IMG/VR virus record: IMGVR_UViG_3300042691_041667
Location: 1 to 51,879 of that record
Direction: 5' to 3' (one strand)
Source: a virus
Length of the DNA stretch: 51,879 nucleotides
Numbering within the stretch: the first letter of the stretch is position 1; every line of letters starts with the position of its first letter. The position numbers and the translations under genes are program-made. Below the pieces are notes generated by a model. The model made no database searches. It saw only the letters and a program-made list of their open reading frames with translations, and was not told the origin of the DNA. This document shows positions 12,408-51,169 of this stretch, in pieces.

Positions 12408-12424
12408 CTATTGGCCATGGTGAA

Positions 12425-12496
12425 TCGGGATGGTAGGGATTGAACCTACGACCTTCTGTTCCCAAAACAGACACGCTGCCGCTGCGCTACATCCCG
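12425..12496 (-). tRNA. trnP(UGG): tRNA-Pro (anticodon UGG)
   Basis: Read on the minus strand, a full cloverleaf forms: acceptor CGGGATG/CATCCCG, a 4-bp D stem with GG in its loop, anticodon stem TCTGT/ACAGA with the loop TTTGGGA (anticodon TGG), and T stem GTAGG/CCTAC with loop TTCAATC. The discriminator base is A, and no CCA is encoded. It would read CCA and, by wobble, other Pro codons. It lies six bases after the structured RNA at 12503-12578. Confidence 0.93.
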
Positions 12497-12502
12497 AGTT
12501 TA

Positions 12503-12900: not shown

Positions 12901-13208
12901 TACTTACTATCTTTGTATTTTTGTGCAGCAGATTTAGCTTCCTTCCTTTTTTTATACTCGTCTTTAGTCATCCATTTTTCACGGCCCCACTTCTCCAAAG
13001 ACTTTTGCTTCTCGCCTTTACCTCCTTTATATCCACCGCCTGCAGACTTGTATTCACTTGCAACAAGCTGAGCTTTCCGTGCCGATATTATTTAGCCTCA
13101 CGGCTACGACCATTCCCCTGGCTTGCCACCACGACCTTCGCGCATTACACGATTCTTAATACGTTCGCGAAGATCAGGTTTGGTGTACTTGCTTTTGTCT
13201 TCAGCCAT
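12900..13208 (-). CDS. Small basic protein interrupted by a 24-nt stop-rich gap; candidate translational bypass
   Basis: The ATG at 13208 opens 34 codons ending KPGEWS, directly followed by TAG. After 24 nt the same frame continues with ARKAQLVASEYKSAGGGYKG and 40 more residues to the TAA at 12902-12900. Joined, the halves restore the conserved KPG(Q/E)WSARKAQ motif without loss or gain of a residue. The gap (13106-13083) has TAG, TGA and TAA in frame, a hairpin TAGCC-GTGA-GGCTA starting at the first stop, and TCG codons just before it and at its end. No ATG, GTG or TTG start exists near the second half. A pseudogene is the alternative. The start overlaps the endonuclease VII gene by 8 nt, with GAGGAA as ribosome binding site. 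Confidence 0.7.
13083..13109 (-). other. Putative ribosome bypass site (take-off TCG, hairpin with stops, landing TCG)
   Basis: The take-off codon TCG is at 13109-13107 and the landing codon TCG at 13085-13083. TAG follows the take-off codon directly and forms the first bases of a 5-bp hairpin (13106-13093) with a GTGA loop. GAGG, within the hairpin, lies 10 nt before the landing codon and could pair with 16S rRNA. Each part has a counterpart in T4 gene 60: matched codons, a stop in a small hairpin, and an internal Shine-Dalgarno-like element. Confidence 0.6.
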
Positions 13209-13809
13209 AGCTTCCTCGCTCTTTAAGATAAATGACTGCATTTGTCAATACATCTATATTATCACCAAACAAGCCTAAGGCCCTATTACATTCTTTGCAA
13301 AGTAAGCCTCTAAACTCATTTGTTTTGTGATTATGATCCATTGCTAAAGAGTGTGTGTCTTTGGGTGGTTGTTTGCAAATTGCGCACAGACCTTGCTGTA
13401 TTTCAAAAACAAGTTCATATTGTTCTTTGGTAATACCTCTTCGTTCATATTTTTTGTGATTTTTGTGCAGTAAATTTTGCCCTTGTTTTTTAACTTTTTG
13501 ATAACGTTCTTTATTATTTTCTACCCATCTGTCCCATTTAATTCTGTTGCATGCTTTGCATGAAGAATGTAAATACAGCTTTCCATCTTGTTTTCTTTTT
13601 CTAAAACAATCCCAATTCAAAAAATGGGCACATTCAGAGCATTGCTTTTGGCCGTCTGTTCCATACAAAAGTCTGAATCTTTTGTTTACTAAAGAGCTGC
13701 AGTCCTTGCAAACGCTGTCACGTTTTATGTTTCCGGCTGATGTGTATCCTTTGTTGTGAAAATTTTCATGCGGTTTTCTGGTGTTGCATTCACGACAAAG
13801 TTTTTGCAT
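13201..13809 (-). CDS. Endonuclease VII-type HNH homing endonuclease
   Basis: The 202-residue protein starts MQKLCRECNTRKPHENFHNK with a zinc ribbon, has a second CxxC set (CSECAHFLNW and CKACNR), and ends with a clear endonuclease VII domain: CAICKQPP, LAMDHNHKT with the catalytic histidine, and GLLCKECNRALGLFGDN. Free-standing genes of this type are usually homing endonucleases. It sits between a truncated copy of the KPGQWSARKAQ family (13845-13940) and an intact but gapped copy (12900-13208), overlapping the latter's start by 8 nt. A TTG at 13842 would add 11 residues. The truncated copy breaks at the same codon region as the gap, which suggests that this is the endonuclease's target site. 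Confidence 0.8.
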   Translation of the reverse strand: MQKLCRECNTRKPHENFHNKGYTSAGNIKRDSVCKDCSSLVNKRFRLLYGTDGQKQCSECAHFLNWDCFRKRKQDGKLYLHSSCKACNRIKWDRWVENNKERYQKVKKQGQNLLHKNHKKYERRGITKEQYELVFEIQQGLCAICKQPPKDTHSLAMDHNHKTNEFRGLLCKECNRALGLFGDNIDVLTNAVIYLKERGSYG

Positions 13810-13844
13810 TGGATTGTTTGTGCTTTTCTTACAATAGCACAAAT

Positions 13845-38530: not shown

Positions 38531-38959
38531 TTATCTACCACTTAACCTTGTGGGATTCTTTCTTCTGTTATTGCATTGTTCTTTGTGTGTAGCCCATCTA
38601 ACATTACCTGATTCGTAGTGCCCCCAGGGATCAATCCGATCTAAACTTTTACCTTCTGGTCTTGGCCCTATTTCTTTGTAAAACTCTTCAAAAGATTTAA
38701 ACTTAAACTCAACGTCAGCATAGGCATTGTGATGATTTTCGTTTACGCGCTTTTTTGCTCTCCAATAACTTTTCCATGCTCCCGCTTTTACTGGGTCATG
38801 CTTGGCAGAAGGTTTTTTTAGATCTAATTTTCTACCAGAAAAAGCGCACGAACGACAAACCCATTGTTTTCCCTTGCGATTATACTGATCAATTCGAATG
38901 CTCCCTTCTGTTCCGCAAGCCGTGCACTTTACGTCAACGTAGTTCCAACGTGAAGACAT
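38531..38959 (-). CDS. HNH-type homing endonuclease
   Basis: The 142-residue protein starts MSSRWNYVDVKCTACGTEGS with a zinc ribbon (CTAC...CRSC), and its C-terminal half has the pattern of small HNH/AP2-linked endonucleases: FKSFEEFYKEIGPRPEGKSL, then DRIDPWGHYESGNVRWATHK and EQCNNRR. The histidine in HYESGNVRWAT is the likely catalytic residue. The protein at 42489 has the same layout. It sits at the 3' end of the small conserved gene 38929-39300 and overlaps its last 31 nt. An in-frame GTG at 39004 would extend it. Confidence 0.75.
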   Translation of the reverse strand: MSSRWNYVDVKCTACGTEGSIRIDQYNRKGKQWVCRSCAFSGRKLDLKKPSAKHDPVKAGAWKSYWRAKKRVNENHHNAYADVEFKFKSFEEFYKEIGPRPEGKSLDRIDPWGHYESGNVRWATHKEQCNNRRKNPTRLSGR

Positions 38960-39300
38960 GTGTGGAGTAACTCTGGAATTATCATACCACTTAAGATCAT
39001 CCACTTCACCTTGTGGCTCCAGTAACGTGCCGACATCTTGTCTGGATTGGGATCTTGTGCGTTATGGCGGGCGTAATAAGACTTCTTACGGGCTTTGTCC
39101 TTGGCAGTCTGAGGATTCTTGCCAGCACCTTCTACGCCCTGCTGACCAAAGCGAACAATCTTCTCCTCTCCCCCTTCGCAAGCCTTGACGATATGACTCT
39201 TGGTTTTATGCCCAGGAGTCCGTTGTGGCTTGTTGCATGCCATCTTATCCTTCTGGTAGCGCTTGGCTGCAGCAACGGCTTTCTTTGGCTTGTCCGACAT
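38929..39300 (-). CDS. Conserved basic phage protein with extended C-terminus
   Basis: The 123-residue protein contains KMACNKPQRTPGHKTKSHIV, KACEGGEEKIVRFGQQGVEG and AKDKARKKSYYARH..KMSARYWSHKVKW. These are signatures of a basic protein family I know from cyanophages and plankton viruses, whose members normally end at KVKW. Here 23 further residues (MILSGMIIPELLHTCLHVGT and TLT) follow and read into the HNH gene. Insertion of the homing endonuclease gene has probably removed the original stop. The function of the family is unknown. Confidence 0.65.
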   Translation of the reverse strand: MSDKPKKAVAAAKRYQKDKMACNKPQRTPGHKTKSHIVKACEGGEEKIVRFGQQGVEGAGKNPQTAKDKARKKSYYARHNAQDPNPDKMSARYWSHKVKWMILSGMIIPELLHTCLHVGTTLT

Positions 39301-40103: not shown

Positions 40104-41642
40104 CTATGGCTTGTACGCTTGGCCGTTTTTGTTGAACATGGTAAACCCACCCATCACAATGAAGTCTGCTGGGACGTTGAATAATTTCTGCATCATTGGC
40201 ATCATCATGGGACTTTGGCAGTTGTATGGAGGCACATCCATATCCGAAAGAGATTTTTTTGTCATCAAAAAAGAAGCGGCTTCTTTCTGCTCACTTTCTG
40301 TGTTGGTTACTAGCTTTTGCTCCCACGCAACCATGCTTCCAATTTGTACAGGGAAATCTGAAGGTTCAGGCGGAAAAGTATTGTCTTTAAATTTAAGCGC
40401 GTAAATATGTTTGCAATAACGCATCTCATCTAGCAAGGGAGTCCAGTTGTCTGTAATGGCATTAATTACTCCTTGCTCTGATGTGTAGTCCTCATAAATA
40501 GGCATGCCCTCAGCCCTTGCCCCAGGAATAGCTGGGTTGGAGGTGCTTCTTAAGTATGTGGCTCCAAAGTCTCTGTATACGCCTACATTGTCCCTAGTAG
40601 CCCCATTGTCAATTGTTGTGCTTGTTGACAAAGAAAAAGGAACAGCAAATCCAGAGGGGGCATATACGTCCATTTGTCTGTTGACAGACGCATCGTTCAT
40701 TGCGTTGTTGTCGACAACCCCACTTAACGTAGTGACTTCATACCGCCCAGGCTTTATTGATGCGATGTTGTTGCGTGGAAAAAACTTACGATCATTAGCG
40801 GCAGGATTAGTTAAAAATGAATAGTCACGATGCGTAAAGTCTTGGCAAGAACAACAGAATCTGGCGCCTGTAATAAGGTATCTACCAACCGTAAACTTTG
40901 CTGGTGATGGAGTTATATACTCTTGGTCCGGTGTCACTTGCACAGAACCAGCTTTCTTAAATGTAAGGATACCTGTGTTTTGATTCACTGCTGTCAACAC
41001 AGCTTGCACGTAGCCGTATCGCTTTTGAGTTGTTGGATCAATGGTGTCTTTATCAATGATATCGCCGCCTACAGTAATGACCCGGTCTTCCAGGATCTCA
41101 GTAACCAAAGGCTTCAGGCCCCCTGGCACCCCTGGCACAACCACATAAAAAGGAGGCGGCAAGGGATTGGCTACGCTCCAAGATCCGGCAAGTTTTACGT
41201 ACCAGTTTGAAGAATCTTCTGTGATGCTTTCAATGTATAGATTGTTGTTGGTGACCGGGTCTTTTAACTTATCACTTCTCATTGAGCCTGCATAACGCCA
41301 TCCGGCCCAATGCATTCCAAGCTCTTTGTTTGTCGTTGGAAAGCCTACAAAAACACCAGAGATTATTGGGTTTGGGTTTGCAATTGAGCTGGGAGTACCA
41401 GAAGGTACAGGGATTTGATACTGAAATGGATAAGAAAAATCGTTGTCATAAAAAGCTGCCGTAGCTAACTCGTAACCACGGCGCCATCTTGACCAGGCGG
41501 ATTCCCTATTTGCTGTACTAAGAGAGTCAGGAACCGATCCTTGTGAGAACTCTGTTGTAATTGGTTTTAAACGAAAAGGATCCTTGTCTTTTTCCTTGGT
41601 AAAGGAAGAAAAGGATCCAAAGTTATTTTTAGTGTTGGTCAC
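40104..41642 (-). CDS. Large virion structural protein
   Basis: The 512-residue protein has a polar N-terminus and many beta segments, with RESAWSRWRRGYELATAAFY at about residue 47, SNWYVKLAGSWSVANPLPPP, and a middle region with CCSCQDFTHRDYSFLTNPAA that resembles a cysteine-rich metal site. The C-terminal part is helical (DEMRYCKHIYALKFKDN). I cannot assign a family, but length, composition and its place at the start of the structural block fit a tail, neck or baseplate component. It is transcribed towards the HTH gene and separated from it by a terminator. Confidence 0.6.
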   Translation of the reverse strand: MTNTKNNFGSFSSFTKEKDKDPFRLKPITTEFSQGSVPDSLSTANRESAWSRWRRGYELATAAFYDNDFSYPFQYQIPVPSGTPSSIANPNPIISGVFVGFPTTNKELGMHWAGWRYAGSMRSDKLKDPVTNNNLYIESITEDSSNWYVKLAGSWSVANPLPPPFYVVVPGVPGGLKPLVTEILEDRVITVGGDIIDKDTIDPTTQKRYGYVQAVLTAVNQNTGILTFKKAGSVQVTPDQEYITPSPAKFTVGRYLITGARFCCSCQDFTHRDYSFLTNPAANDRKFFPRNNIASIKPGRYEVTTLSGVVDNNAMNDASVNRQMDVYAPSGFAVPFSLSTSTTIDNGATRDNVGVYRDFGATYLRSTSNPAIPGARAEGMPIYEDYTSEQGVINAITDNWTPLLDEMRYCKHIYALKFKDNTFPPEPSDFPVQIGSMVAWEQKLVTNTESEQKEAASFLMTKKSLSDMDVPPYNCQSPMMMPMMQKLFNVPADFIVMGGFTMFNKNGQAYKP

Positions 41643-41648
41643 AATGAA

Positions 41649-42428
41649 TCAGAAGAAACCACCCTGTGCATAAATGTGAGCACCTGGGTTATAACCAGAA
41701 ATGTTGGGACCTTCCGCAAATACACCCACGTAAATACGGTCGCCTCGCTCCAGGTAAATACCCTTGTTGCGGAGTGGTGCACCAGCACCTAAGCCGGATG
41801 TATTGCCTGCAGTAGGCATGGGCACGGCCAGTTGAGGCATCACGTCAGAGCAATCAACAAGGCCACTGTTAGCAGGGACTGTTTTTGCAAACAGTACACG
41901 ATAGTCACCACTTGCAGGAATAGGAGTAGTGGTATTACGTGTCTGGTAAAAAACAAAGGTAACGGCAGGTTGAGAACCGTAAGCAACCCCTTGGAACAAG
42001 AAACCGCTGGTGATGCCACCAGAATAGTTCAGAGCTGTATTGACGCCAGTTAACGTGCCCGAACCAGTGTAAGTGTAGTAACCAACGCCACTGGCAGTAC
42101 CACCTGTAAGGACTGCAGCGGATTGAATGTAAACAACTTGACCGCTAGTTAAAGCAACAACCGTGCCAGAGGTGCTGGCATTAACGGTGTAATCAGCGTC
42201 CCGATAACGGTCATTGCGCGCAATCGTGATGGAGTCAACAACCCCACCACTGTTGTTGTCTTCGCTAAGAGCAGCGTCCATGTCCACCAGGATCGATGGC
42301 GCTTGGCCACCCTGGACAAACACAGTATTACTGGCTTGACTTCCAACAGTCTGAGTAGTGACACGCACCGTATCAAATAACGGACGGTCAATAAATAGGG
42401 GCTGCTTGTTCGAGCTTGTCGATGACAT
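41649..42428 (-). CDS. Beta-rich virion protein, possibly capsid decoration
   Basis: The 259-residue protein is Thr/Ser/Gly-rich with repeated strand segments (TVNASTSGTVVALTSGQVVY, VTFVFYQTRNTTTPIPASGD) and ends with GDRIYVGVFAEGPNISGYNP. The composition is typical of head decoration or tail accessory proteins. It precedes the large structural gene on the same strand by 6 nt. No specific family is recognised. An HNH gene on the opposite strand interrupts the spacing upstream. Confidence 0.6.
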   Translation of the reverse strand: MSSTSSNKQPLFIDRPLFDTVRVTTQTVGSQASNTVFVQGGQAPSILVDMDAALSEDNNSGGVVDSITIARNDRYRDADYTVNASTSGTVVALTSGQVVYIQSAAVLTGGTASGVGYYTYTGSGTLTGVNTALNYSGGITSGFLFQGVAYGSQPAVTFVFYQTRNTTTPIPASGDYRVLFAKTVPANSGLVDCSDVMPQLAVPMPTAGNTSGLGAGAPLRNKGIYLERGDRIYVGVFAEGPNISGYNPGAHIYAQGGFF

Positions 42429-42488
42429 GTGCGTTCTCGCTGGTTGAGCTTTTGTGCTAAGCTCTTGAGGTTCCTTGGTTTTATTTTA

Positions 42489-43088
42489 ATGGAAGCACTC
42501 TTTATTTGTTCAAAGTGTGGTCAACCTTTTGAAAGCAAGTGGCCCGCAAGTGTTCGTTCGCGTTTAAAAAAGAATGGAGCAGTTTATTGTTCAAAAGCAT
42601 GTTACGCAACAAAGCATGGCGCTTGGTCTAACGAAAGTAAATACCACTCGGAATACAAATCATGGGTGGCAATGAAAGGACGTTGCAGTAACCCTGGATG
42701 CAGTCATTACGAACGATATGGTGGGCGTGGAATAACCTATGAAAAAAGCTGGAATGATTTCAATGAATTTTTAAAAGATATGGGGCCAAAGCCAGATCGG
42801 AAAATGGAACTAGATCGTATTAACAACGATGGGAACTACTGCAAAGAAAATTGCCGTTGGGCTACGCGTAAAGAACAAACACGTAATCGTGGTGGCAAAC
42901 GCGCCACGCGGCTTTACACCTTTGAAGGAAAAACAATGTGTATTTCAGATTGGGCCAAGGAAGTTGGTATCAGTCCGCAATCAATGCAAAAACGTTTAAA
43001 CAATGGATGGCCTTTGGAAAAAGCGTTTTCTAAAGAACGTCACGACAAAAAAGGCTCCACGCATGTGAAGCCTAAAGATCAAAACTGA
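42489..43088 (+). CDS. HNH homing endonuclease with C-terminal HTH
   Basis: The 199-residue protein starts MEALFICSKCGQPFESKWPA with a zinc ribbon (CSKC..CSKAC). The nuclease region reads YKSWVAMKGRCSNPGCSHYE, RYGGRGITYEKSWNDFNEFL, MGPKPDRKMELDRINNDGNY and CKENCRWATRKEQTRNR, the order of small HNH endonucleases with the active site in LDRINNDGNY. The C-terminus (MCISDWAKEVGISPQSMQKR) looks like a helix-turn-helix. It is inserted antisense between two minus-strand virion genes and overlaps the end of one by 10 nt. The 38531 protein is a shorter relative. Confidence 0.8.
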   Translation: MEALFICSKCGQPFESKWPASVRSRLKKNGAVYCSKACYATKHGAWSNESKYHSEYKSWVAMKGRCSNPGCSHYERYGGRGITYEKSWNDFNEFLKDMGPKPDRKMELDRINNDGNYCKENCRWATRKEQTRNRGGKRATRLYTFEGKTMCISDWAKEVGISPQSMQKRLNNGWPLEKAFSKERHDKKGSTHVKPKDQN

Positions 43089-43804
43089 GTTAACGATTCT
43101 AAAAGAGAACTGCGTGGCGTATATAGCGACGCCACGCTTATATCCGATTCCAACTCTGTTGCTGGACGCTTGAACAACGACTTGAGTAACTGCTCTTGTA
43201 CTGTTGGTTCTTTGAGAGTTTGATTAAGCAATAAGTTCTTAAGGATAAAACCCTCAAGGAATTGCTTAGCACTAGAACCAGTTGCCTCTGCGGGCTGAGC
43301 AGAAGCAGCAGAAGCAGCAGCAGTAGCAGCAGTAGCAGACGAAGCAGTTAAGGGGTCCCCCAAGGTGGCTTGCGCTCGCTTATAAAGGCCTCCACCGGGT
43401 TTAAACCCAGGTAAAGAAGAAGCGACCGAGGTTCCAAACGAATCTTTAGCGTGTAAACTTACGTTTGGATTTCCCCCAAGAATCGTGGCATATGCACGAT
43501 CAATGCCCATTTGACCAGGTTTAAAACCACGGTCAACTAAGAACTTTTCGACTGCAGGCAGTTGTTCGGCAATCGTATAACTACCAAGCTTGCTTGGATT
43601 CAAATACTTGGCTCTTTCGGGGCCGCCAAATTGAATCAGGCCATAATAATTGCCGCCAGCGCCACCGTATATGTTTGGACTAAAGCCAGACTCCTGGTGG
43701 ATTAACGCCCCAAATTCATAGGGGTCTAGCCCAAGACGTTGCGCTGTTTGAAATACAGCTGCACGATCTCCTGGTTTTAGTGTACCAACGCGTCCAGTAG
43801 CCAT
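43079..43804 (-). CDS. Lytic transglycosylase-like virion protein
   Basis: The 241-residue protein opens with a lysozyme-like fold: AVFQTAQRLGLDPYEFGALI, HQESGFSPNIYGGAGGNYYG with the catalytic glutamate in HQES, and LIQFGGPERA, a pattern found in SLT-type transglycosylases. The second half has an alanine-rich low-complexity stretch (about residues 155-180) and a helical end. It probably opens peptidoglycan during DNA entry as a tail-tip or internal virion enzyme. The start follows the upstream 40-residue gene on the same strand. Confidence 0.65.
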   Translation of the reverse strand: MATGRVGTLKPGDRAAVFQTAQRLGLDPYEFGALIHQESGFSPNIYGGAGGNYYGLIQFGGPERAKYLNPSKLGSYTIAEQLPAVEKFLVDRGFKPGQMGIDRAYATILGGNPNVSLHAKDSFGTSVASSLPGFKPGGGLYKRAQATLGDPLTASSATAATAAASAASAQPAEATGSSAKQFLEGFILKNLLLNQTLKEPTVQEQLLKSLFKRPATELESDISVASLYTPRSSLLESLTQF

Positions 43805-43811
43805 TTTTGTA

Positions 43812-43934
43812 TTAACCTCTAGCTCCTACCCAGTTTGAACTTGCCTTGAGACCAGGGATAAAGACGGTTTGCAGCGCAAGGGCCGTGGCTAAATAGGTCA
43901 AAGTACGTTTAACAAACTTAGGACAGAGAATCAT
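43812..43934 (-). CDS. 40-residue hydrophobic protein
   Basis: The frame reads MILCPKFVKRTLTYLATALA and continues LQTVFIPGLKASSNWVGARG. A basic start and a hydrophobic helix (about residues 11-28) suggest a membrane or signal-anchor peptide. It fills the gap between two minus-strand virion genes. A plus-strand frame of 31 codons shares the CATG start region, but the minus frame agrees better with its neighbours. Confidence 0.45.
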   Translation of the reverse strand: MILCPKFVKRTLTYLATALALQTVFIPGLKASSNWVGARG

Positions 43935-44024
43935 GGTTTTAAAAGCAACAACACTGGCCCCCGTGAATCAAAAGATTCGTGTCCAGTTGGCTGGTCTTAC
44001 ATGCTGTGCAATGCCAGTATTAGT

Positions 44025-44981
44025 TTAGCGTGACGACCACGAGCTATTCAAGAGCCGTTGGAAGAGATCGCTACGGTTCTTTTCAGCAGGGGTATTGAAG
44101 GAGAACGGATCTAGGGAGATGCCGTCGATTGGACTTAGGTTTGTTGCGCCTTCGTAAGTAGCCTCCGCTGGATTAACGGGAGGAGCTACAACTGGTGGCT
44201 GACTAGGCTCACTCAAGAACCGATTAAACATCTGTGCTTGGAGTTGGTTCTGTGGAGTGTTGAATTCAGTGCGGGGTAGTGGAAGGCCTACAGGCTGTAG
44301 GTCAGACGCGCCTGCGTAAGAAGGAATGCTTTGAAGAGCGTTTGTCCCAAGAAGAGAGTCAGGTGCAAAAGGAAGATCAGCTGGAGCACCCATGGCCCCT
44401 GCGTTCAAAACACCTTGGATGACATCATAACCTGCTTGGCCCGGCTTGACTTTACCTGCAAGTGTCTTGTTGCGTTCTGCCCAGATCCGCATTCCAGCGT
44501 CTTCGGCGGACTGAACTTGCTCTGGGGTTGCTCCTTTTGCAGCAGCAAGCTGTCGTGCTGCTTCGTACCGCTGAACATCGGGGTCTTGAGCAGTGAGCTG
44601 TGCAACACGTGACACTTCTTGCTGGTACGCACGCTCAGCGGCGGGAGAGGAACTTGAACCTGTACTCACTCCAGGTGTATAGCTTTGCGTGGAAGGCCTT
44701 CCATATCGGCCATACATACCAGTCTGTTGCGCTTGTTGTGGGGGAGCGGTATAGGGAAGGCGCCCTTGCATAAGCTGGCCGCTCATGTAACTAAGCTCAT
44801 TCCAGGCAGAACGTCCAGCGTCAGTATTCTTGGTCGAAGGAATAGATTGAAGGGCTCTTTCTAAAGTTGAACCAGGGCGGCCTTGAGTGAACAAAGCTGC
44901 ACCTGCAGCTGGAGCAGCAACAAAACGATTAAGCACGCCCCTCAAACCAGCAAGTTCTTTTCCAGTTGCAAAACTAGGCAT
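44025..44981 (-). CDS. Low-complexity virion-associated protein
   Basis: The 318-residue protein is rich in Ala, Gln, Pro, Ser and Gly. It starts MPSFATGKELAGLRGVLNRF and has helical parts around ERAYQQEVSRVAQLTAQDPD and AEDAGMRIWAERNKTLAGKV. The end (NPAEATYEGATNLSPIDGIS) is polar. GGAGG, 8 nt before ATG 44981, is a strong ribosome binding site. A minor virion or scaffold role fits its position; no family is recognised. Confidence 0.55.
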   Translation of the reverse strand: MPSFATGKELAGLRGVLNRFVAAPAAGAALFTQGRPGSTLERALQSIPSTKNTDAGRSAWNELSYMSGQLMQGRLPYTAPPQQAQQTGMYGRYGRPSTQSYTPGVSTGSSSSPAAERAYQQEVSRVAQLTAQDPDVQRYEAARQLAAAKGATPEQVQSAEDAGMRIWAERNKTLAGKVKPGQAGYDVIQGVLNAGAMGAPADLPFAPDSLLGTNALQSIPSYAGASDLQPVGLPLPRTEFNTPQNQLQAQMFNRFLSEPSQPPVVAPPVNPAEATYEGATNLSPIDGISLDPFSFNTPAEKNRSDLFQRLLNSSWSSR

Positions 44982-44983
44982 AA

Positions 44984-45502
44984 CTACCTCCAAACCTCAT
45001 GTAAATAAAGACGAGAGCCAACTGCGGTGTCGGCAGGTCCAGGTAATGCCTGGATAAATTCAGCACCAGAGCGTTCGTAACGGTAACGAGCCTGGAAAGG
45101 ATCTTTATAGTTGGGAACGTACAGGATGCCAGCAAGGCGATTGGTTTCGTAGAGATAAATCTCGTCCCAAACCTTTAAAGCCTCCTTGGCATTGCTGGAG
45201 CGAATTGTGCGGTCCACGTCTCCGAGGATGCTTTCAATTCGTGTAGAAGGTGTCGATGCAACTTCTGTTTTCTTCTCAGCCGTATCGCAACGACCAAGTT
45301 GAATAACAACCTTGTCATAGAAGTATGAATCCGGAACGGTATTCATTGCTTCTTCTAGCCGGCTATAATCACCAGCTGGAACAGACACGGTAAAGTAGCC
45401 CAGGTGATACCTAACTCTACTTTTATCAAAGTCGCTCAGTTGCACGGGCCGCGCCTGGACAAGTCTTTTGTTATTATAGCTGTAGATTTCAAATGACTTC
45501 AT
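44984..45502 (-). CDS. Hypothetical virion-block protein
   Basis: The 172-residue protein (MKSFEIYSYNNKRLVQARPV...) has a beta-rich first part (YHLGYFTVSVPAGDYSRLEE) and a helical second part (SNAKEALKVWDEIYLYETNR). It could be a head-tail connector or neck component by size and position, but no family is recognised. The start codon overlaps head to head with the start codon of the GIY-YIG gene on the other strand (shared CATG at 45500-45503). Confidence 0.55.
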   Translation of the reverse strand: MKSFEIYSYNNKRLVQARPVQLSDFDKSRVRYHLGYFTVSVPAGDYSRLEEAMNTVPDSYFYDKVVIQLGRCDTAEKKTEVASTPSTRIESILGDVDRTIRSSNAKEALKVWDEIYLYETNRLAGILYVPNYKDPFQARYRYERSGAEFIQALPGPADTAVGSRLYLHEVWR

Positions 45503-46082
45503 GAATACGTATTACACGTACGCATGGTTAAATGAACACAAAAAACCGTTTTACATAGGAAAAGGAAAAGGCAGAAGGGCTTGGCAAAAACACATAAACC
45601 TTAAAGAAGCGCAAGATTTAAAATATACAGTTTTAATTTTAAAACAAAATTTAACAGAGGAAGAGGCGTTTTTTCATGAACGTTACATGATATTTGTGCT
45701 AGGTAGAAAAGATTTAAATACAGGAATACTCTTGAATAAAACAAGTGGCGGTCAAGGATGGGACCTCTCTTGGAATGAAGAAAGACGAAATGCCGTCAGC
45801 CTGTTTCACTCTGGCAGAAAACGTTCAAAAGAAACGCGTTTGAAAATAAGCAGCGCTCATCAAGGTAAAAAAATAACAAAAGATCACTTTCAAAAACTTG
45901 AAGCAGGAAAACTTAAAAAATTACAGAAACAAATTACTGTTGTAAACATAAAAACAAAAATTGTTAAATCATTTAAAAGCTATAAAGACGCGGCTTCTTT
46001 TATCGGTGTTCATTCCAGCAATGTTAGCAAGCTTGCTAACAACAAGATTAAAAGCTTAAAGGGGTGGCAAGCAGTCAGATAA
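45501..46082 (+). CDS. GIY-YIG homing endonuclease
   Basis: The 193-residue protein starts MNTYYTYAWLNEHKKPFYIG with the GIY-YIG equivalent (YYTYAW...FYIGKGKGRRAW), then a catalytic-region helix with EEEAFFHERYMIFVLGRKDL and NKTSGGQGWDLSW. The C-terminal part has an NUMOD-like unit (SKETRLKISSAHQGKKI) and a helix-turn-helix (KSYKDAASFIGVHSSNVSKL), the usual DNA-binding tail of Seg/I-TevI relatives. It lies antisense in the structural block, starting exactly at the start codon of the 44984 gene. Confidence 0.85.
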   Translation: MNTYYTYAWLNEHKKPFYIGKGKGRRAWQKHINLKEAQDLKYTVLILKQNLTEEEAFFHERYMIFVLGRKDLNTGILLNKTSGGQGWDLSWNEERRNAVSLFHSGRKRSKETRLKISSAHQGKKITKDHFQKLEAGKLKKLQKQITVVNIKTKIVKSFKSYKDAASFIGVHSSNVSKLANNKIKSLKGWQAVR

Positions 46083-46127
46083 CTGCACGTCTACCTTTCG
46101 TTATAGTTTAATTATAAAGTAATCAAT

Positions 46128-47195
46128 TTACCTAACACCTGGCAGGGGCGAGCTCATGTACTCAGCCAGGAACTGTTGCGACATGCTGGGTTGTGGCGCC
46201 AAGGCTTCCCCAAGTGTCTGCTCAAGCATCACCTCTTGCAATGTCCTTTGCTTTGGTTTTGTCAGTTGCAAAAGAGACATCAGTGACGAAAGATCATCTT
46301 CAGAAGATTCGCCTTTTTGTTGTGTAGAAGCAACTAGATCAGCCCCTGGCATGATGTCAGTCAGTTTGCCTTCTGCCGTTTTATACCGACCAGTAGCAAG
46401 CCATTCAAGTTGTTGATCTGTAAGAGGTTTTGTGCCTTCAAGCGCCATGTGTACGTGCGTGTCGTGCCCTGGGTCACCTGGGCCCAAGACTTCACTCAAA
46501 AGTCCTTGCTTTTGTAATTGCTTTCCACGCCAGCTAAGATTGCCTGTGCGCGTCTTCCAATCAAGTTTAGGGCCGCCTTCGTATGCAGGGGCCATGTCAG
46601 GGCGCCAATCAGTTACGTCAATTGCAAGGCCCTTGGGATGATAGCCAGTAGGTGAATGGCCGCCCCCAACGCCGCCAAATGCAGGATTTTCGCCAACGCG
46701 TAAACCCATGCGTTGTAGGTACTTGCCGATATCAACGATACCTCTTGAGGGGGAGGAAGAAGAGGAAGAGGAAGACACTGCAGCCGGTTTTGGAATACTG
46801 TATAAATTTGAGTAGCTTTCAGGGTGAACTGCATCGCTACCCGGTTTAAAACCGCCGAGAAAGCCAACGCCTGATTGGCGTGTCAACTGAGACAATAAAT
46901 TATTTTGCGCATCGTATCTGCCCTGGGCAAGACCGATAAAACTAGGGTTAGCCCCAGCTTGTTTTAGAAGTGCAATCTGCCTTTTTACGCCTTGAATATC
47001 TTGAGGATTGTTACTTAACCCAGAGGAAATAAGTGGTTTGGCGCCCTTAAATGCAGAAGGGTTTGAGGTAATCGCGCTTTGCAGCATATCTGCAATTGCA
47101 GAAGGCCCAAGACCTACCTTGGCACTTCCTCCAAGGCCAAGTGCCCCTTGCAGTCCAACAGCGAGACTGTCTCCCCAAACGCCCGTATAACTCAT
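46128..47195 (-). CDS. Bimodular virion hydrolase: GDSL-like plus M15-type peptidase
   Basis: The 355-residue protein has an N-terminal SGNH-like part: YTGVWGDSLAVGLQGALG holds the GDS motif, SNNPQDIQGVKRQIALLKQA resembles the third block, and AVHPESYSNLY may hold the final Asp/His. The C-terminal domain, after a poly-serine linker, has GGHSPTGYHPKGLAIDVTDW and GDPGHDTHVHMALEG, the H...D...HxH zinc pattern of M15-like peptidoglycan peptidases. It probably removes cell-envelope esters or sugars and cuts peptide bridges during infection. It lies 27 nt downstream of a minus-strand terminator, so it needs its own promoter. Confidence 0.65.
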   Translation of the reverse strand: MSYTGVWGDSLAVGLQGALGLGGSAKVGLGPSAIADMLQSAITSNPSAFKGAKPLISSGLSNNPQDIQGVKRQIALLKQAGANPSFIGLAQGRYDAQNNLLSQLTRQSGVGFLGGFKPGSDAVHPESYSNLYSIPKPAAVSSSSSSSSPSRGIVDIGKYLQRMGLRVGENPAFGGVGGGHSPTGYHPKGLAIDVTDWRPDMAPAYEGGPKLDWKTRTGNLSWRGKQLQKQGLLSEVLGPGDPGHDTHVHMALEGTKPLTDQQLEWLATGRYKTAEGKLTDIMPGADLVASTQQKGESSEDDLSSLMSLLQLTKPKQRTLQEVMLEQTLGEALAPQPSMSQQFLAEYMSSPLPGVR

Positions 47196-47221
47196 TATCT
47201 TTTTCTTTTTATTTTAAAACG

Positions 47222-47245
47222 AAAAAACCCCTGGTTTCCCAGGGG
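47222..47245 (-). terminator. Intrinsic terminator (minus strand) upstream of the hydrolase gene
   Basis: On the minus strand CCCCTGG and CCAGGGG form a perfect 7-bp stem with the loop GAAA and are followed by six T residues. It ends transcripts coming from 47815 and above, or serves the antisense HNH region. Confidence 0.8.
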
Positions 47246-47342
47246 CTGCAATGGGAGTGAATTGATCAAACCCTGACTAAGTCGGCTGCCAGTACTGCAT
47301 CATGACGATATTTGTGCTATCGTTTTACTTTGTTGAATTAAC

Positions 47343-47786
47343 GTGAAACGGTTAAATCCAGAAACAGGTGCTCCTTTTTGTCATGGTTACTACAGAGAAG
47401 ACGGATACATGTTTACCGGCTACAACAAAAATAAAATCAAAAAAGATGGAATGTATCAAGAAGTCTGGGTAAGCCCTGAAACAGTAAAAAGAAAAAAACA
47501 ATATGACAAAAAACGCTGTAAAAAAATCTCGGAAAAAAATAAAGAGTGGATGAATAATCTAAAAAAAGAAGCTGGCTGCGCCTGTTGTGGTTACAACGAA
47601 TATCCTGAAGGTTTAGATTTCGATCACTTGCACAGCAAGAAATTTAACATTGGAAGAGGGGGTACTCTTAATAGAAAAAGACTGGCAGAAGAAATTAAAA
47701 AATGTCAAGTATTGTGCGGAACATGTCATCATATAAAAACCAGAAACCCAAAGCTGTTTAATATCTTAATAAAAAAGGGGCTTTAG
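47343..47786 (+). CDS. HNH homing endonuclease
   Basis: The 147-residue lysine-rich protein has a clear HNH domain in its second half: CACCGYNEYPEGLDFDHLHS, KKFNIGRGGTLNRKRLAEEI and VLCGTCHHIKTRN, with two zinc CxxC pairs and DH as the active site. The first half is a basic DNA-binding part. It is inserted antisense between two minus-strand genes and lies exactly between two minus-strand terminators (47222-47245 and 47771-47792); its stop codon is in the loop of the second. The start is GTG or the next in-frame codon (VKRLNPETGAPFC). Confidence 0.8.
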   Translation: MKRLNPETGAPFCHGYYREDGYMFTGYNKNKIKKDGMYQEVWVSPETVKRKKQYDKKRCKKISEKNKEWMNNLKKEAGCACCGYNEYPEGLDFDHLHSKKFNIGRGGTLNRKRLAEEIKKCQVLCGTCHHIKTRNPKLFNILIKKGL

Positions 47787-47792
47787 CCCCTT
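47771..47792 (-). terminator. Intrinsic terminator (minus strand) after the HhH gene
   Basis: On the minus strand AAGGGGC and GCCCCTT pair over 7 bp around the loop TAAA and run into T residues. It lies 23 nt after the stop of the HhH protein gene and ends the capsid-gene transcript. The plus-strand HNH stop codon lies in its loop. Confidence 0.8.
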
Positions 47793-47814
47793 GCAATAAA
47801 ACAACAAGAAAAGT

Positions 47815-48225
47815 TCAAACTCGAATGAGATCATCGCTAAAAATAGCGTCCCAGTCCACACGCTTAATCTGTCTTAACTGCTCAAGGCTATTAAACTTCT
47901 CACCCGATAAGGACATCTGAAGATCTTTAATCTCTCTAGCTGTCTTGACACCAATTCCCTTGATGTGATCAGCGATCATTTGGGGGGTGGCAGTATTAAT
48001 GTTTAAACGTGTTTCGGGCGGGAAAACACGAGGCTCTTCTTGGGCAGCCTTATCCTTAACCTGAAGGGTTGCAACTTTTTTTGTTGCTACTTCATCTGGG
48101 GTCAACTCAGTTTTGTAAGCAGTGTAAAGGCGGCCGTCCTGATCTTCGACCATGAACCAATCGCCGTTATCCCATTCGCTTACAACTTTGACGCGAGCGC
48201 CAGTTTTACGATGCTGGTAAAGCAT
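47815..48225 (-). CDS. Helix-hairpin-helix protein (ComEA-like)
   Basis: The 136-residue protein has an SH3-like N-terminal part (GARVKVVSEWDNGDWFMVED) and a C-terminal helix-hairpin-helix domain: LNINTATPQMIADHIKGIGV, KTAREIKDLQ and FNSLEQLRQIKRVDWDAI, typical of ComEA/UvrC-type nonspecific DNA binding. It could bind packaged or entering DNA as part of the virion or neck. It is the last gene of the capsid operon before the terminator at 47771-47792. Head-completion roles are a reasonable guess but unproven. Confidence 0.65.
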   Translation of the reverse strand: MLYQHRKTGARVKVVSEWDNGDWFMVEDQDGRLYTAYKTELTPDEVATKKVATLQVKDKAAQEEPRVFPPETRLNINTATPQMIADHIKGIGVKTAREIKDLQMSLSGEKFNSLEQLRQIKRVDWDAIFSDDLIRV

Positions 48226-48265
48226 AAGGACCAGATGTTTTAATTCTGGTCCTAGTTTAACCTAA

Positions 48266-49072
48266 TCAGCTAACGGTGCGGCCGAGGATATACTCTTCGA
48301 TATCTTCGTAGCCAGGTGCGTCATCAGGTTGGATGTAGCACACTTCAACCACGAGATAGCCTTTCAGGCCAGCGTTGTAATCGGCATCAGCCAGATACAC
48401 GCCACCAGACACGCCAGTATCGGTGTTGGTGCCACGGGCGAACACCTTGAAGGTGGTAGCGCTACTGAGAGCCTTGTACACGCCAGAGGGGCCCACACCG
48501 GTCGCACCAGTGGTGGTCAGGAAAGGCGTGGAGCCAAGGGCTTGAGTGCCAGCAGCGAACACGATCTTGGTAGATGCGTCACCAGAGGTGGTGGAGGTGA
48601 GGTTGGCCTGAGCGATAGGCTCGCCCACACCGGTCACAGCCACGGGGCCACTGGAGTCGCGACCGAAGGTAACCACGTTACCGGTCGAGGCATACACGCC
48701 AGTAGCAACGCGACCATCACCCCAGCCAGAAGCAACCGAGATCGCAGCGCGATAAACGAAAGCAGGTTGGGTGGCGCTACCAGAGATCACCATGCCGGTG
48801 ATGTCGGGGCGAGTGTCGTCCTGGCGGTAAGGCGAAGGAACGATCACGCTCATGGTTTGGCCATAGGTGGCTGCATCACCGGAAGTCCAGGACACAGGCA
48901 CGTAACCGCGCTGTTGGAAGTAGCGGTAGCCAGGGACAGCCAGCACCGAGGTGGGGCCACCCTTGGAATAATCATTGCTGCCGTCAGCGACGACATCAAT
49001 GTTCTTGTACCAGCCGTTCAGGGCATTGGTCCAGTTACCTGGATAGATCTTCTTGGAAGATAAGTAGGACAT
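48266..49072 (-). CDS. Beta-rich capsid-associated protein
   Basis: The 268-residue protein lies directly after the capsid gene on the same strand and has a good ribosome binding site (GGAGAAATAAATG). It is Thr/Gly/Val-rich with repeated strand units (GDGRVATGVYASTGNVVTFG, TTSGDASTKIVFAAGTQALG) and an acidic end (DDAPGYEDIEEYILGRTVS). It could be a head decoration or vertex protein, since such genes often follow the capsid gene. Family unknown. Confidence 0.6.
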   Translation of the reverse strand: MSYLSSKKIYPGNWTNALNGWYKNIDVVADGSNDYSKGGPTSVLAVPGYRYFQQRGYVPVSWTSGDAATYGQTMSVIVPSPYRQDDTRPDITGMVISGSATQPAFVYRAAISVASGWGDGRVATGVYASTGNVVTFGRDSSGPVAVTGVGEPIAQANLTSTTSGDASTKIVFAAGTQALGSTPFLTTTGATGVGPSGVYKALSSATTFKVFARGTNTDTGVSGGVYLADADYNAGLKGYLVVEVCYIQPDDAPGYEDIEEYILGRTVS

Positions 49073-49106
49073 TTATTTCTCCGTTAAATTGGATTTATTT
49101 TCTTTA

Positions 49107-50258
49107 TCAGATGGTGCCGTCATCAGAGACAAAGCTGAAGGCGGTGGTCACGAAGTCCTTGTTCAGGATCTCGAAGCCAGCGTACAGTTGCCAAATCAGG
49201 ATAATAAAACGGCTGAAATCATCGTTGTTGTTGATAAGCACCTGGGCGTTAGGGCCACCGATGCCAACACCGATTGCTTGAGGACCAAAGAAGTAACCTT
49301 GGGCAACTTCTTGGTTGCTGTAAGAAGGAGTGTCGGTGAAGCTTGCGCTAACCGTCTTGGTCGGGAAGTTGGTCGACTCGAAGAACTTCACGCCTTCAAA
49401 CTGAACGCCGGTCGGCATCACAGGTTCACCAGCCAGGAAATAGCCCTGACCAGCTTGGGGACCCATGTAGAAGCTGGCGTTGTTAGGCATCATGGGGTTG
49501 CCCATGTACATGCCTTGACCGGGGTTGCCGCTGTAGCGAGCAATCTCACGGAAGTCTGGGTCACGACGCAGGTGCATCATGAAAGTAGGATCGCAAATGC
49601 AGCGATACAGACCATCAGAGAAGGTAGGAACGTTGCGCTTACGCAGGTCCTTAACAACGGTCAGAAGGTCGGTGCGCACCTGGAACTGCTGCACTTGAGC
49701 AGCGTACTCAGCAGCGGTATAGGCAATCGAACCGTTGGCTGCTTTACCCTTGCCACCGGGGAAGTAGTAACCACCCTGGGTAGAAGAAGCTTCACCGTTG
49801 GCTTCGGCTTTGGCCAGTTCGTCAATAAAGACGCGGTCGCGCCAGCGGCGGTAGTCGTCCAGCAGGGTCAGGCTGCCGATCGACTGGTGGAACATGTTCA
49901 GGTTGCCGGTATCCAGCAACAGGCGCTGCGCGGTGATCAACGTCTCCCGAGCAATCTTGAAGGTCGAAGGCTGGGTAGGATCGCCGGGGTCCGCAGGGCC
50001 AGTATACTCCTTAAGCACCACCAGAACTTTTTCCTTGGTGATGTTACGGCTGTTGGCAGTACCGATGGTTTGGTCGGCAATACGCTCACGGCTGTCCTTA
50101 GTACCAGGGGTACCCCAGAACTTGTAGCGGTCTAACTGAACGGTTTGACCAGGCTGACGAGTGAAGTCGTGGACAACCACGGGCTCCACTGCCATCTCGG
50201 CAATATAAGCGGGGTGGGGACGGTAAAGTTCCGCACCTAAAATCTTTGGAAAGTCGTT
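49107..50258 (-). CDS. Probable major capsid protein, main exon
   Basis: The frame is open from exon boundary 50258 and reads NDFPKILGAELYRPHPAYIA, EMAVEPVVVHDFTRQPGQTV and QLDRYKFWGTPGTKDSRERI, then helices and strands over 383 residues to the stop at 49107. A major capsid role is inferred from its length, its position beside the decoration-like and scaffold-like genes, and the general pattern; no search was made. The ATG at 50195 (MAVEPVVV) is the first methionine, but the frame stays open through NDFPKILGAELYRPHPAYIA up to the group I intron, so I take the intron as splitting the gene. Exon 1 is at 50585-50617; spliced length would be 394 residues. Confidence 0.7.
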   Translation of the reverse strand, partial: NDFPKILGAELYRPHPAYIAEMAVEPVVVHDFTRQPGQTVQLDRYKFWGTPGTKDSRERIADQTIGTANSRNITKEKVLVVLKEYTGPADPGDPTQPSTFKIARETLITAQRLLLDTGNLNMFHQSIGSLTLLDDYRRWRDRVFIDELAKAEANGEASSTQGGYYFPGGKGKAANGSIAYTAAEYAAQVQQFQVRTDLLTVVKDLRKRNVPTFSDGLYRCICDPTFMMHLRRDPDFREIARYSGNPGQGMYMGNPMMPNNASFYMGPQAGQGYFLAGEPVMPTGVQFEGVKFFESTNFPTKTVSASFTDTPSYSNQEVAQGYFFGPQAIGVGIGGPNAQVLINNNDDFSRFIILIWQLYAGFEILNKDFVTTAFSFVSDDGTI

Positions 50259-50584
50259 CTCCTGGTCTCTAGTTTCTTAGAGGGGTGGACTATCTCTTCA
50301 TCCCTGTGGGATGCCGGACGCTAAATCTGGTATTACGTAACAAGAACGTGTTACCCCCAGTAGTCTCTGCACCTTCCAATCACGCTTGATTGGCTTGGCT
50401 CAGGATTACCCTCGGCTTTACGTTAGGGCTTCCCTGAATTCATCCAGTTTGCACTCATCGATTGCTCGGTGAGGTGACAACGTTGAGCGTTCAGTTGAAA
50501 CAAATAAATTTGTTTACCAGGACCTGAACCAGCTATCAATGAACACTTTGGTTTATCCTCCAGTGTCAGTGTTTTTATCGGGTG
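50259..50584 (-). ncRNA. Group I intron in the capsid gene
   Basis: The minus strand shows the conserved group I core: the Q-type segment AATCCTGAGCCAAGC (about 50391-50405), CAATCA-AGCG-TGATTG for P6, the R-type segment GTGCAGAGACTAC, and the S-type segment AAGAGATAGTCC. GACTA and TAGTC form P7. CATCCC-ACA-GGGATG forms P8 and CTCTA-AGAAAC-TAGAG forms P9. TTTATCTTTC at the exon 1 border pairs with GGAGGATAAA as P1, with G-U pairs. I place the boundaries at 50584 and 50259 because this keeps the coding frame; exact ends are inference. There is no endonuclease gene inside. Confidence 0.88.
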
Positions 50585-50617
50585 AAAGATAAAGACACTT
50601 AATGTCTTATCTAACAA
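50585..50617 (-). CDS. Probable exon 1 of the capsid gene
   Basis: The 33 nt before the intron encode MLDKTLSVFIF if TTG at 50617 is the start, which splices in frame to NDFPKILGAELY in exon 2. No ATG is available between the upstream gene and the intron, and no Shine-Dalgarno sequence is seen. The boundary follows from the P1 pairing and the frame. The start codon is the weakest part of this model. Confidence 0.45.
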
Positions 50618-50644
50618 AAATTTTAGCAGGTGGTAACTTAAAAG

Positions 50645-51169
50645 TTACATGTACTGCATGGTCGGCACGCCCATACGCGCCATACTGGTGTTATTGGAAC
50701 CGTAGCTTTCGGGGTCAATTGGTGCACCTTGCTGGAACCCAGAGATGCCCATGGCACCTGCAAGACCACCAGCGGCTAAACCACCGAGACCAGCAGCGCC
50801 TGCGGCAAGGGGAGCGCCAGCAACTGCAGCTGCTTCTTGGCTAATGCCACGGTTGATGACATCAGCCACAGGACCCATTGCGCCACGGGCAAATGCGGCA
50901 CGCTTGCTGCCAGCTGGGGCAGAGGCGCCAATAGCCCCAAGGCCTTCAATCGCTGTAGATGCAGCAGCTGCACGAGCAGGACCGGCATATTTACCAGCCA
51001 GACGTGCAGCGCCAAGGGCACCACGGGCACCAAGACCTGCGGCTACACCGCCAAGTACAGCACTACCTGGGTCTTCGCCCTGTGCGGCAAGAGCCCCGCC
51101 CGCCAGAAGACCGGCGGCGACGGGGACTCCATATGCAAGACCAGGACGACGTTGTCCTAATGGTTGCAT
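50645..51169 (-). CDS. Ala/Gly-rich hydrophobic protein
   Basis: The 174-residue protein is almost entirely alanine and glycine with hydrophobic runs (PVAAGLLAGGALAAQ, GAPLAAGAAGLGGLAAGGL) and a C-terminal MGVPTMQYM tail. It could be an ejection, scaffold or membrane-associated virion protein. It lies between the partial scaffold-like gene and the capsid gene, starting 4 nt after the former. No family is recognised. The plus-strand frames over it (for example 50745-51608) are shadows due to the Ala/Gly bias. Confidence 0.55.
   Translation of the reverse strand: MQPLGQRRPGLAYGVPVAAGLLAGGALAAQGEDPGSAVLGGVAAGLGARGALGAARLAGKYAGPARAAAASTAIEGLGAIGASAPAGSKRAAFARGAMGPVADVINRGISQEAAAVAGAPLAAGAAGLGGLAAGGLAGAMGISGFQQGAPIDPESYGSNNTSMARMGVPTMQYM

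Follow-up and report, generated by a model that had tools for sequence, protein, structure and literature searches.

Endonuclease genes in the late gene block

The window that was analysed, i.e. the whole 51,879-bp stretch of IMG/VR virus record IMGVR_UViG_3300042691_041667, is a fragment of an S-EIV1-like cyanophage, and ~1.6 kb of its head region shows 80.5% DNA identity to Synechococcus phage S-EIV1. Its late genes, named A to J here, span positions 40104 to 51169 and all lie on the minus strand. Amid these virion genes three endonuclease genes, X1 (HNH), X2 (GIY-YIG) and X3 (HNH), run on the plus strand, an arrangement noted in an earlier reading of the letters alone (the sequence-only reading), with which the open reading frames (ORFs), strand, positions and PHROG matches agree (Table 1). 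The PHROG profiles place a homing-family endonuclease domain in all three, and the GC content of X1, X2 and X3 is 42, 34 and 35%, respectively, versus 47% for the window. For X1 the start at 42489 was preferred over a longer frame from 42429, because the homologues align from 42489 on.

Relatives were collected as 152 viral-contig loci (L numbers), some of them overlapping, with the head protein and gene E as queries; occupancy figures rest on the best 80 matches of each search and do not represent population frequencies. Within this set L082 is the same virus as the window and L154 is a slice of the window's own record. Both empty and occupied alleles exist at the X2 and X3 sites, and X1 is absent upstream of B at 98 of the 154 B starts; the genes are variably present, and the earlier reading of them as homing-type endonuclease genes is supported. 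The same reading placed each of the three genes at a gene border. This is true of the present-day genes, but the insertion points of X2 and X3 lie inside ancestral coding sequence. The duplicated and recoded gene ends found there are the main feature of the region, which the sequence-only reading missed, and the gene ends carried by two of the three nucleases matter more than the orientation of the nucleases.

Two inserts with a duplicated gene end

Compared with L004 and other relatives, X3 is part of an insert that breaks the coding sequence of gene G, with a 5-nt overlap in L004; when the flanks are joined, 184 of 204 positions match L004. The body of G ends ...GTGGACTGGGA and then runs in frame into a new ('rescue') end borne by the insert, and the native end is found as a relic beyond X3. 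Among the 12 codons of rescue and relic, stop included, 2 are unchanged, 5 differ synonymously and 5 change the residue. A terminator-like hairpin follows the new G stop; terminator-like sites in the region are no commoner than in shuffled sequences (7 versus 7.2).

The insert that contains X2 has a comparable anatomy at the other end of a gene. Its break lies inside the coding sequence of gene E, with a 4-nt overlap in L004, and after the flanks are joined L004 agrees at 184 of 200 positions. The native E start codon is a GTG (peptide VQLSDFDK...). The homology of E to its relatives begins at the GTG at 45445, the new start, and it is therefore unlikely that the longer E frame from 45502 represents the true start. 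Rescue and relic encode the same peptide, VQLSD, with three of the five codons changed, all synonymously. The insert provides a TATAAT-like box ahead of the new start, and a promoter-like region of the native gene is retained beside the relic. A scan of the sampled loci for relatives of X2 matched a single locus only, L082. Judged from these sequence comparisons, it is likely that X2 and X3 represent free-standing homing-type endonuclease cassettes that reside inside conserved late-gene ends and carry a recoded rescue end.

Table 1. Positions of inserts, gene ends, endonuclease genes and late genes in the window
Feature	Positions	Strand	Remarks
HNH (X3) insert, 544 bp	47302-47845		break between 47301 and 47846 versus L004 and other relatives
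X3, HNH endonuclease gene	47343-47786	plus	phrog_3106, 7e-23; no Pfam match
New (rescue) G 3' end	47815-47850	minus	DAIFSDDLIRV + stop
Relic of native G 3' end, beyond X3	47266-47301	minus	DAVLAADLVRV + stop; close to G end of L004, L002, L003
Terminator-like hairpin	47771-47792	minus	between new G stop and X3 stop
GIY-YIG (X2) insert, 639 bp	45434-46072		break between 45433 and 46073 versus L004 and other relatives
X2, GIY-YIG homing endonuclease gene	45501-46082	plus	phrog_314, 2.6e-18; Pfam GIY-YIG 1e-4, below cut-off
New (rescue) E start	45431-45445	minus	GTGCAACTGAGCGAC, 5 codons, peptide VQLSD
Relic of native E start	46073-46088	minus	GTGCAGTTATCTGACT; identical to E start of L004, L002, L003
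TATAAT-like box in insert	45465-45480	minus	33 nt upstream of new E start
Native E promoter-like region beside relic	46099-46118	minus	same sequence upstream of E in L004
X1, HNH endonuclease gene	42489-43088	plus	phrog_3377, 8e-48
HNH gene at K 3' end	38531-39004	minus, sense	phrog_374, 2e-17
Sense HNH insert at K 3' end	~38535-39000		break between 38534 and 39001 versus L086, L013; 14-nt overlap
Relic of K 3' end	38535-38552	minus	HKVKW + stop
Gene K	38929-39300	minus	stop lost at insertion, frame extended by 23 codons
HNH gene	39245		Pfam 2e-10; relative in 68/153 loci
Endonuclease VII-like gene	13201-13842	minus	Pfam 4e-21
Weak HNH match only	11486		Pfam 0.04
Gene A	40104-41642	minus	ORF
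Gene B	41649-42428	minus	ORF; 5' side borders X1
Gene C	43079-43804	minus	ORF
Gene D	44025-44993	minus	ORF
Gene E	44984-45445	minus	phrog_29158; GTG start at 45445; foreign 5' end
Gene F	46128-47195	minus	ORF
Gene G	47815-48225	minus	helix-hairpin-helix-like; Pfam HHH_3 1.6e-5, below its cut-off; foreign 3' end
Gene H	48266-49072	minus	ORF
Gene I, major head protein	49107-50195	minus	
Gene J	50645-51169	minus	

Recurrence among relatives

A scan of gene ends against their surroundings returned 519 peptide hits at threshold, nearly all of them noise, from which those at the matching gene end were picked; targeted searches added further copies. A count that did not remove duplicates gave 119 copies. 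Copies identical over the endonuclease and 60 nt of flank on either side were then counted once and one copy with a short flank was omitted, and 38 distinct copies of these families with both flanks were retained; the related ones among them do not represent independent insertions. They comprised 31 copies from IMG/VR contigs and 7 from isolates of other hosts. The relic was kept in 27 of the 31 IMG/VR copies, 26 of which were recognized by the peptide test (7 at G 3', 4 at E 5', 7 at terminase 3' and 8 at E 3') and one, the window GIY-YIG, by its nucleotides. L167 and L212 have the cassette at the same sites with the relic gone, and two copies without a relic (L097/L099 and a second copy in L279) lie elsewhere.

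Endonucleases of several families show the combination of a foreign end in frame and a native end left as a relic, at four gene ends (E 5', E 3', G 3' and terminase 3'). Among the examples, L046 and L096 have an HNH gene inside E and a repeat of the first 28 E codons, L005 and L028 have an HNH_3 gene (Pfam 6e-12 and 5e-12, respectively; weak AP2 match) that runs in sense at the E 3' end, and L115 has an HNH gene in sense at the 3' end of the terminase gene (identified by phrog_38, 3e-75). Relic peptide scores did not exceed 31 in the opposite-strand control and 36 on the same strand among isolates; the relic of L028 scored 52 and 55 in two scans, and the weakest cases, window G (36) and L276 (39), rest on site and alignment and not on score. 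No convincing relic was found for the 7 isolate copies among the 38; the relic test that included eight isolates (L295-L302) left out L280 and L289, which are partial matches. A high score in L299 (67) was rejected as a relic, since the peptide, from which alone this was judged, reads like repeated tRNA-like sequence.

Divergence and putative regulatory parts of the foreign ends

At the 5' end of E the relics match single-copy alleles for 95-100% and the gene bodies for 96-100%, versus 81-85% for the rescue segments. Over the four sites together the relics reach 92-100% (79% in L279) and the rescues 72-89%; the sole rescue match of 1.00, for the window G end, is with L154 and thus with the window's own record. 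In 19 relic-rescue pairs we counted 207 synonymous differences over 215 sites and 76 non-synonymous differences over 679 sites. These pairs were hand-chosen from the 26 relic-positive copies and the window GIY-YIG, without L201 and the E 3' copies of L156 and L217, and L281 and L283 have a relic in common. Foreign ends in the wider phage group keep most amino acids and use other codons, and at E 3' the divergence between relic and rescue exceeds that of all 50 single-copy alleles. Selection for maximal recoding, as could be read from the pooled number of synonymous differences per site (pS 0.96), was considered and rejected, because the counting inflates six-fold codons and only E 3' lies beyond natural allele divergence.

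Endonuclease identity was compared with the identity of the adjoining segments, using few and non-independent pairs. For the rescues the correlation coefficient r was 0.76, 0.96, 0.99 and 0.99 at E 3', G 3', terminase and E 5', respectively, versus -0.03, 0.79, 0.74 and -0.27 for the relics. Moreover, the rescues of L096 and L161 are 96% alike, with relics and gene bodies that are 82% and 83% alike, a contrast that suggests movement of the cassette as a unit.

The 5' cassettes bring a promoter-like box, as is also found at the single-copy genes. In all 82 distinct single-copy E upstream regions a TATAAT or TAGAAT box stands no more than 60 nt from the start, usually at 28 nt; in shuffled sequences the frequency is 11%. 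The box is kept in the four distinct E 5' relics, and four of the five distinct E 5' rescues have it 27 or 33 nt upstream; the fifth has TACAAT.

X1 and the other nuclease genes

The old B promoter region and the first B codons are present beyond X1 in L208/L057, L196 and L207, and the sequence up to the start codon in L226. X1 is probably a cassette of the same kind at a later stage, with the relic gone, and the same kind is probably represented by the sense HNH gene at 38531, at the 3' end of gene K. Distant homologues of X1 in other viral contigs (L249-L269) could in no case be tied to a gene end (best score 45 in L263; control maximum 41). L004 and L085 have near-identical neighbours, yet their X1 proteins are 97% and 68% identical to that of the window and the C-terminal DNA is the same in both, which suggests recombination inside the endonuclease gene.

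The sequence-only reading also listed an additional endonuclease load outside the three genes. The HNH genes at 38531 and 39245 are supported and the gene at 13201 matches endonuclease VII, but that at 11486 is a weak HNH match. The Endonuclease VII-like gene lies ~0.7 kb from a tRNA-Pro gene (12424-12497), and weak relatives of it adjoin partial X3-like matches in L083 and L087.

Proposed mechanism and alternatives

The anatomy of the inserts, the empty sites, the relics, the recoding and the joint variation of foreign end and endonuclease are observed directly, and the following course of events would connect them. A cassette would bring a foreign gene end that becomes joined in frame to the resident body, and the displaced original end would remain as a relic; the G cassette would supply a new stop and a terminator-like hairpin, and the E cassette a new start and a promoter-like box. 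In a co-infecting phage the endonuclease would cut the native gene end near the boundary of body and relic, after which repair of the cut would copy the cassette in. The recoding could make the occupied allele immune to its own nuclease, and it could also make it harder for recombination between relic and rescue to remove the cassette; the data do not separate these two roles. Later loss of the relic would leave a nuclease beside a normal-looking gene, as is probably the case at X1. We lean slightly towards the view that these cassettes act as natural home-and-rescue drives: the nuclease would act on competing phages by destroying an essential gene at its conserved end, and would be packaged with a nuclease-resistant recoded end and a promoter or terminator, the whole moving between lineages as one unit, with loss of the relic (L167, L212 and most X1 copies) leading to an ordinary gene end. 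The probability of this view is somewhat reduced by the correlation of endonuclease and gene-body identity at three sites.

Several observations weigh against the interpretation as cassettes with a recoded rescue end. The values for endonuclease versus gene-body identity are r 0.90, 0.75 and 0.89 at these three sites (-0.02 at E 3'), and common descent may therefore explain part of the co-variation. The divergence of relic and rescue at G 3' and terminase 3' falls within the ordinary range between alleles. In the window itself the duplication at the GIY-YIG insert spans 5 codons only and its nuclease is known solely from the window virus, and at the G end a different residue is encoded by 5 of the 12 codons, with 6 of 11 residues kept. 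No relic of gene B is visible at X1 in the window, a clear B-start relic is found in only 4 of the 33 distinct copies among X1 relatives, and the end of gene K is not neatly restored at 38531, where the stop is lost. Finally, no convincing relic was found in 8 phage isolates with distant HNH homologues (L295-L302), nor in L290, L291 and L294.

The strongest alternative is ordinary free-standing homing with co-conversion, in which the nuclease of a divergent donor phage cuts the recipient gene and is imported together with the adjoining gene end and one-sided homologous repair leaves the duplicate as a by-product instead of an evolved rescue. The fact that the divergence at G 3' and terminase 3' stays within the allele range, and that endonuclease identity tracks the gene body at three sites, is in line with this explanation, and co-conversion of flanking markers is described as standard for phage homing endonucleases (PMC12724721). 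However, none of the sampled single-copy alleles is close to the rescues, at the 72-89% given above, with the relics at 92-100% save that of L279, and the same outcome is observed at four gene ends with unrelated endonucleases, of which the 5' cassettes bring a promoter-like box. We consider this explanation rather unlikely.

The sequence-only reading sought the point of the arrangement in the antisense orientation, which was proposed to keep the nuclease genes out of the late transcript, so that their expression may be timed differently or antisense transcripts may influence the late genes. Copies at the same site indeed stay antisense: the 56 X1 hits that lie no more than 1500 nt from a B start were all on the opposite strand and none on the same strand (154 B starts, overlapping loci included). 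Of the distinct copies, all 7 at G 3' and all 4 HNH ones at E 5' are antisense as well. Related HNH genes of the phage group, however, run in sense at other gene ends, with 7 distinct copies at the terminase 3' end and 8 at the E 3' end, and so does the gene at 38531 in the window. Escape from the late transcript is therefore not a defining property and does not hold as a general rule, and since related cassettes of the same anatomy lie in sense at the 3' ends of terminase, E and K, an explanation from orientation is improbable.

It is more improbable still that the native gene end is used because the inserts are introns or are spliced out or bypassed in some other way. In favour of this, there is a real group I intron in the vicinity (50266-50507), and the relic ends can still be read from the DNA. 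Against it, an in-frame end with a stop or start of its own is already present in the gene, and Rfam gave no intron match that would make the endonucleases intron-borne, neither within 42300-48300, even at E up to 1, nor at gathering score in L096, L028, L271 and L046; a missing match is not proof here, since the intron-like insert in the head gene of L083 also went unmatched.

Relation to known elements

The closest precedent found in print is that of fungal mitochondrial elements at 3' gene ends. Mobile ORFs were described to replace gene C-termini in atp6 of Allomyces macrogynus and in atp6, atp9, cox2 and nad3 of Glomus sp. (PMC3630166), and C-terminal duplication beside endonuclease ORFs is reported elsewhere as well (PMC6279837). 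As in the cassettes found here, these are described as an endonuclease ORF with a foreign 3' end in frame and the native end left downstream; the DNA of the two ends is far apart and the protein much less so, and the native end is close to that of relatives (PMC3630166). The fungal ORFs in this account are of the LAGLIDADG or GIY-YIG type, are found at 3' ends and have the nuclease in the transcript of the gene (PMC3630166), whereas the cassettes described here reside in phages, involve HNH and GIY-YIG nucleases, are also found at 5' ends with a promoter-like box and are often antisense. A relic near to relatives, a more distant inserted end and a conserved protein are shared features, less clearly for the window G end; a nuclease that follows the inserted end within one transcript is not, X1, X2 and X3 being antisense to their host genes.

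Phage studies report endonuclease genes in the neighbourhood of essential genes, domain shuffling and the exchange of DNA on the flanks (PMC10448857, PMC12724721, PMC2248197), with no mention of carried gene ends in the sections consulted. Free-standing phage homing endonucleases and islands of homing endonuclease genes (HEGs) share with the cassettes the intron-less HNH and GIY-YIG genes beside essential genes, the variable presence and the exchange of flanking DNA, but a carried recoded gene end or a relic is not mentioned in the sections available to us (PMC10448857, PMC12724721). In the open-licence literature, to which the search was confined, subscription papers lying outside it, we found no phage case of carried gene ends. 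Gene function can survive the insertion of a HEG, as in a split ribonucleotide reductase gene that works in two pieces. Insertion of a HEG that splits such a phage gene is among the published cases (PMC10448857). As here, a free-standing endonuclease is found inside an essential gene; unlike there, the cassette supplies the missing end. In an engineered home-and-rescue drive, function is restored by a recoded copy within the drive itself. The nuclease of such a drive is aimed at an essential gene (PMC7968924). These drives are synthetic, based on clustered regularly interspaced short palindromic repeats (CRISPR) and built in flies, and the likeness is one of logic and not of descent.

Other observations in the late block

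The group I intron in the window (Rfam RF00028, 50266-50507, 92 bits) belongs to an element at 50262-50533 on the minus strand that L002 lacks (break between 50261 and 50534). Joining of the flanks leaves the head-protein frame open ahead of its annotated ATG, and the intron is therefore likely to interrupt the beginning of the head gene. Several relatives have ~560 extra bases in this region (between 50498 and 50515), perhaps an endonuclease gene. In L083 the head-protein gene contains an 890-bp insert after codon 23 (L083:1715-2604), with an open frame that looks LAGLIDADG-like by eye; it gave no Rfam match at gathering score. The S-EIV1 record (KJ410740.1) has a full-length head-protein match on the minus strand (L001:17169-18395), where its annotation shows a short minus-strand piece and an antisense ORF only.

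The N-terminal part of gene F, which borders the HNH insert (46697-47192, residues ~1-150), has a match in L082 only, and other F relatives align from residue 136 or later; this part may be a recent acquisition. Around residue 300 the gene A homologues of L002, L005, L013, L078, L086 and L093 are longer by ~215-260 bases, which may represent an inserted domain.

Implications

If the proposed home-and-rescue mechanism is true, it would show how endonuclease genes without an intron or intein can occupy conserved coding sequence of a virus and leave the gene intact in function, namely by bringing the missing end. It predicts cut sites at the boundary of gene body and relic. The cassettes look like a natural counterpart of the engineered home-and-rescue gene drive and would offer a natural case with which engineered rescue drives can be compared. 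For the phages themselves, the ends of structural genes may differ in history from the gene body, which matters for both trees and annotation.

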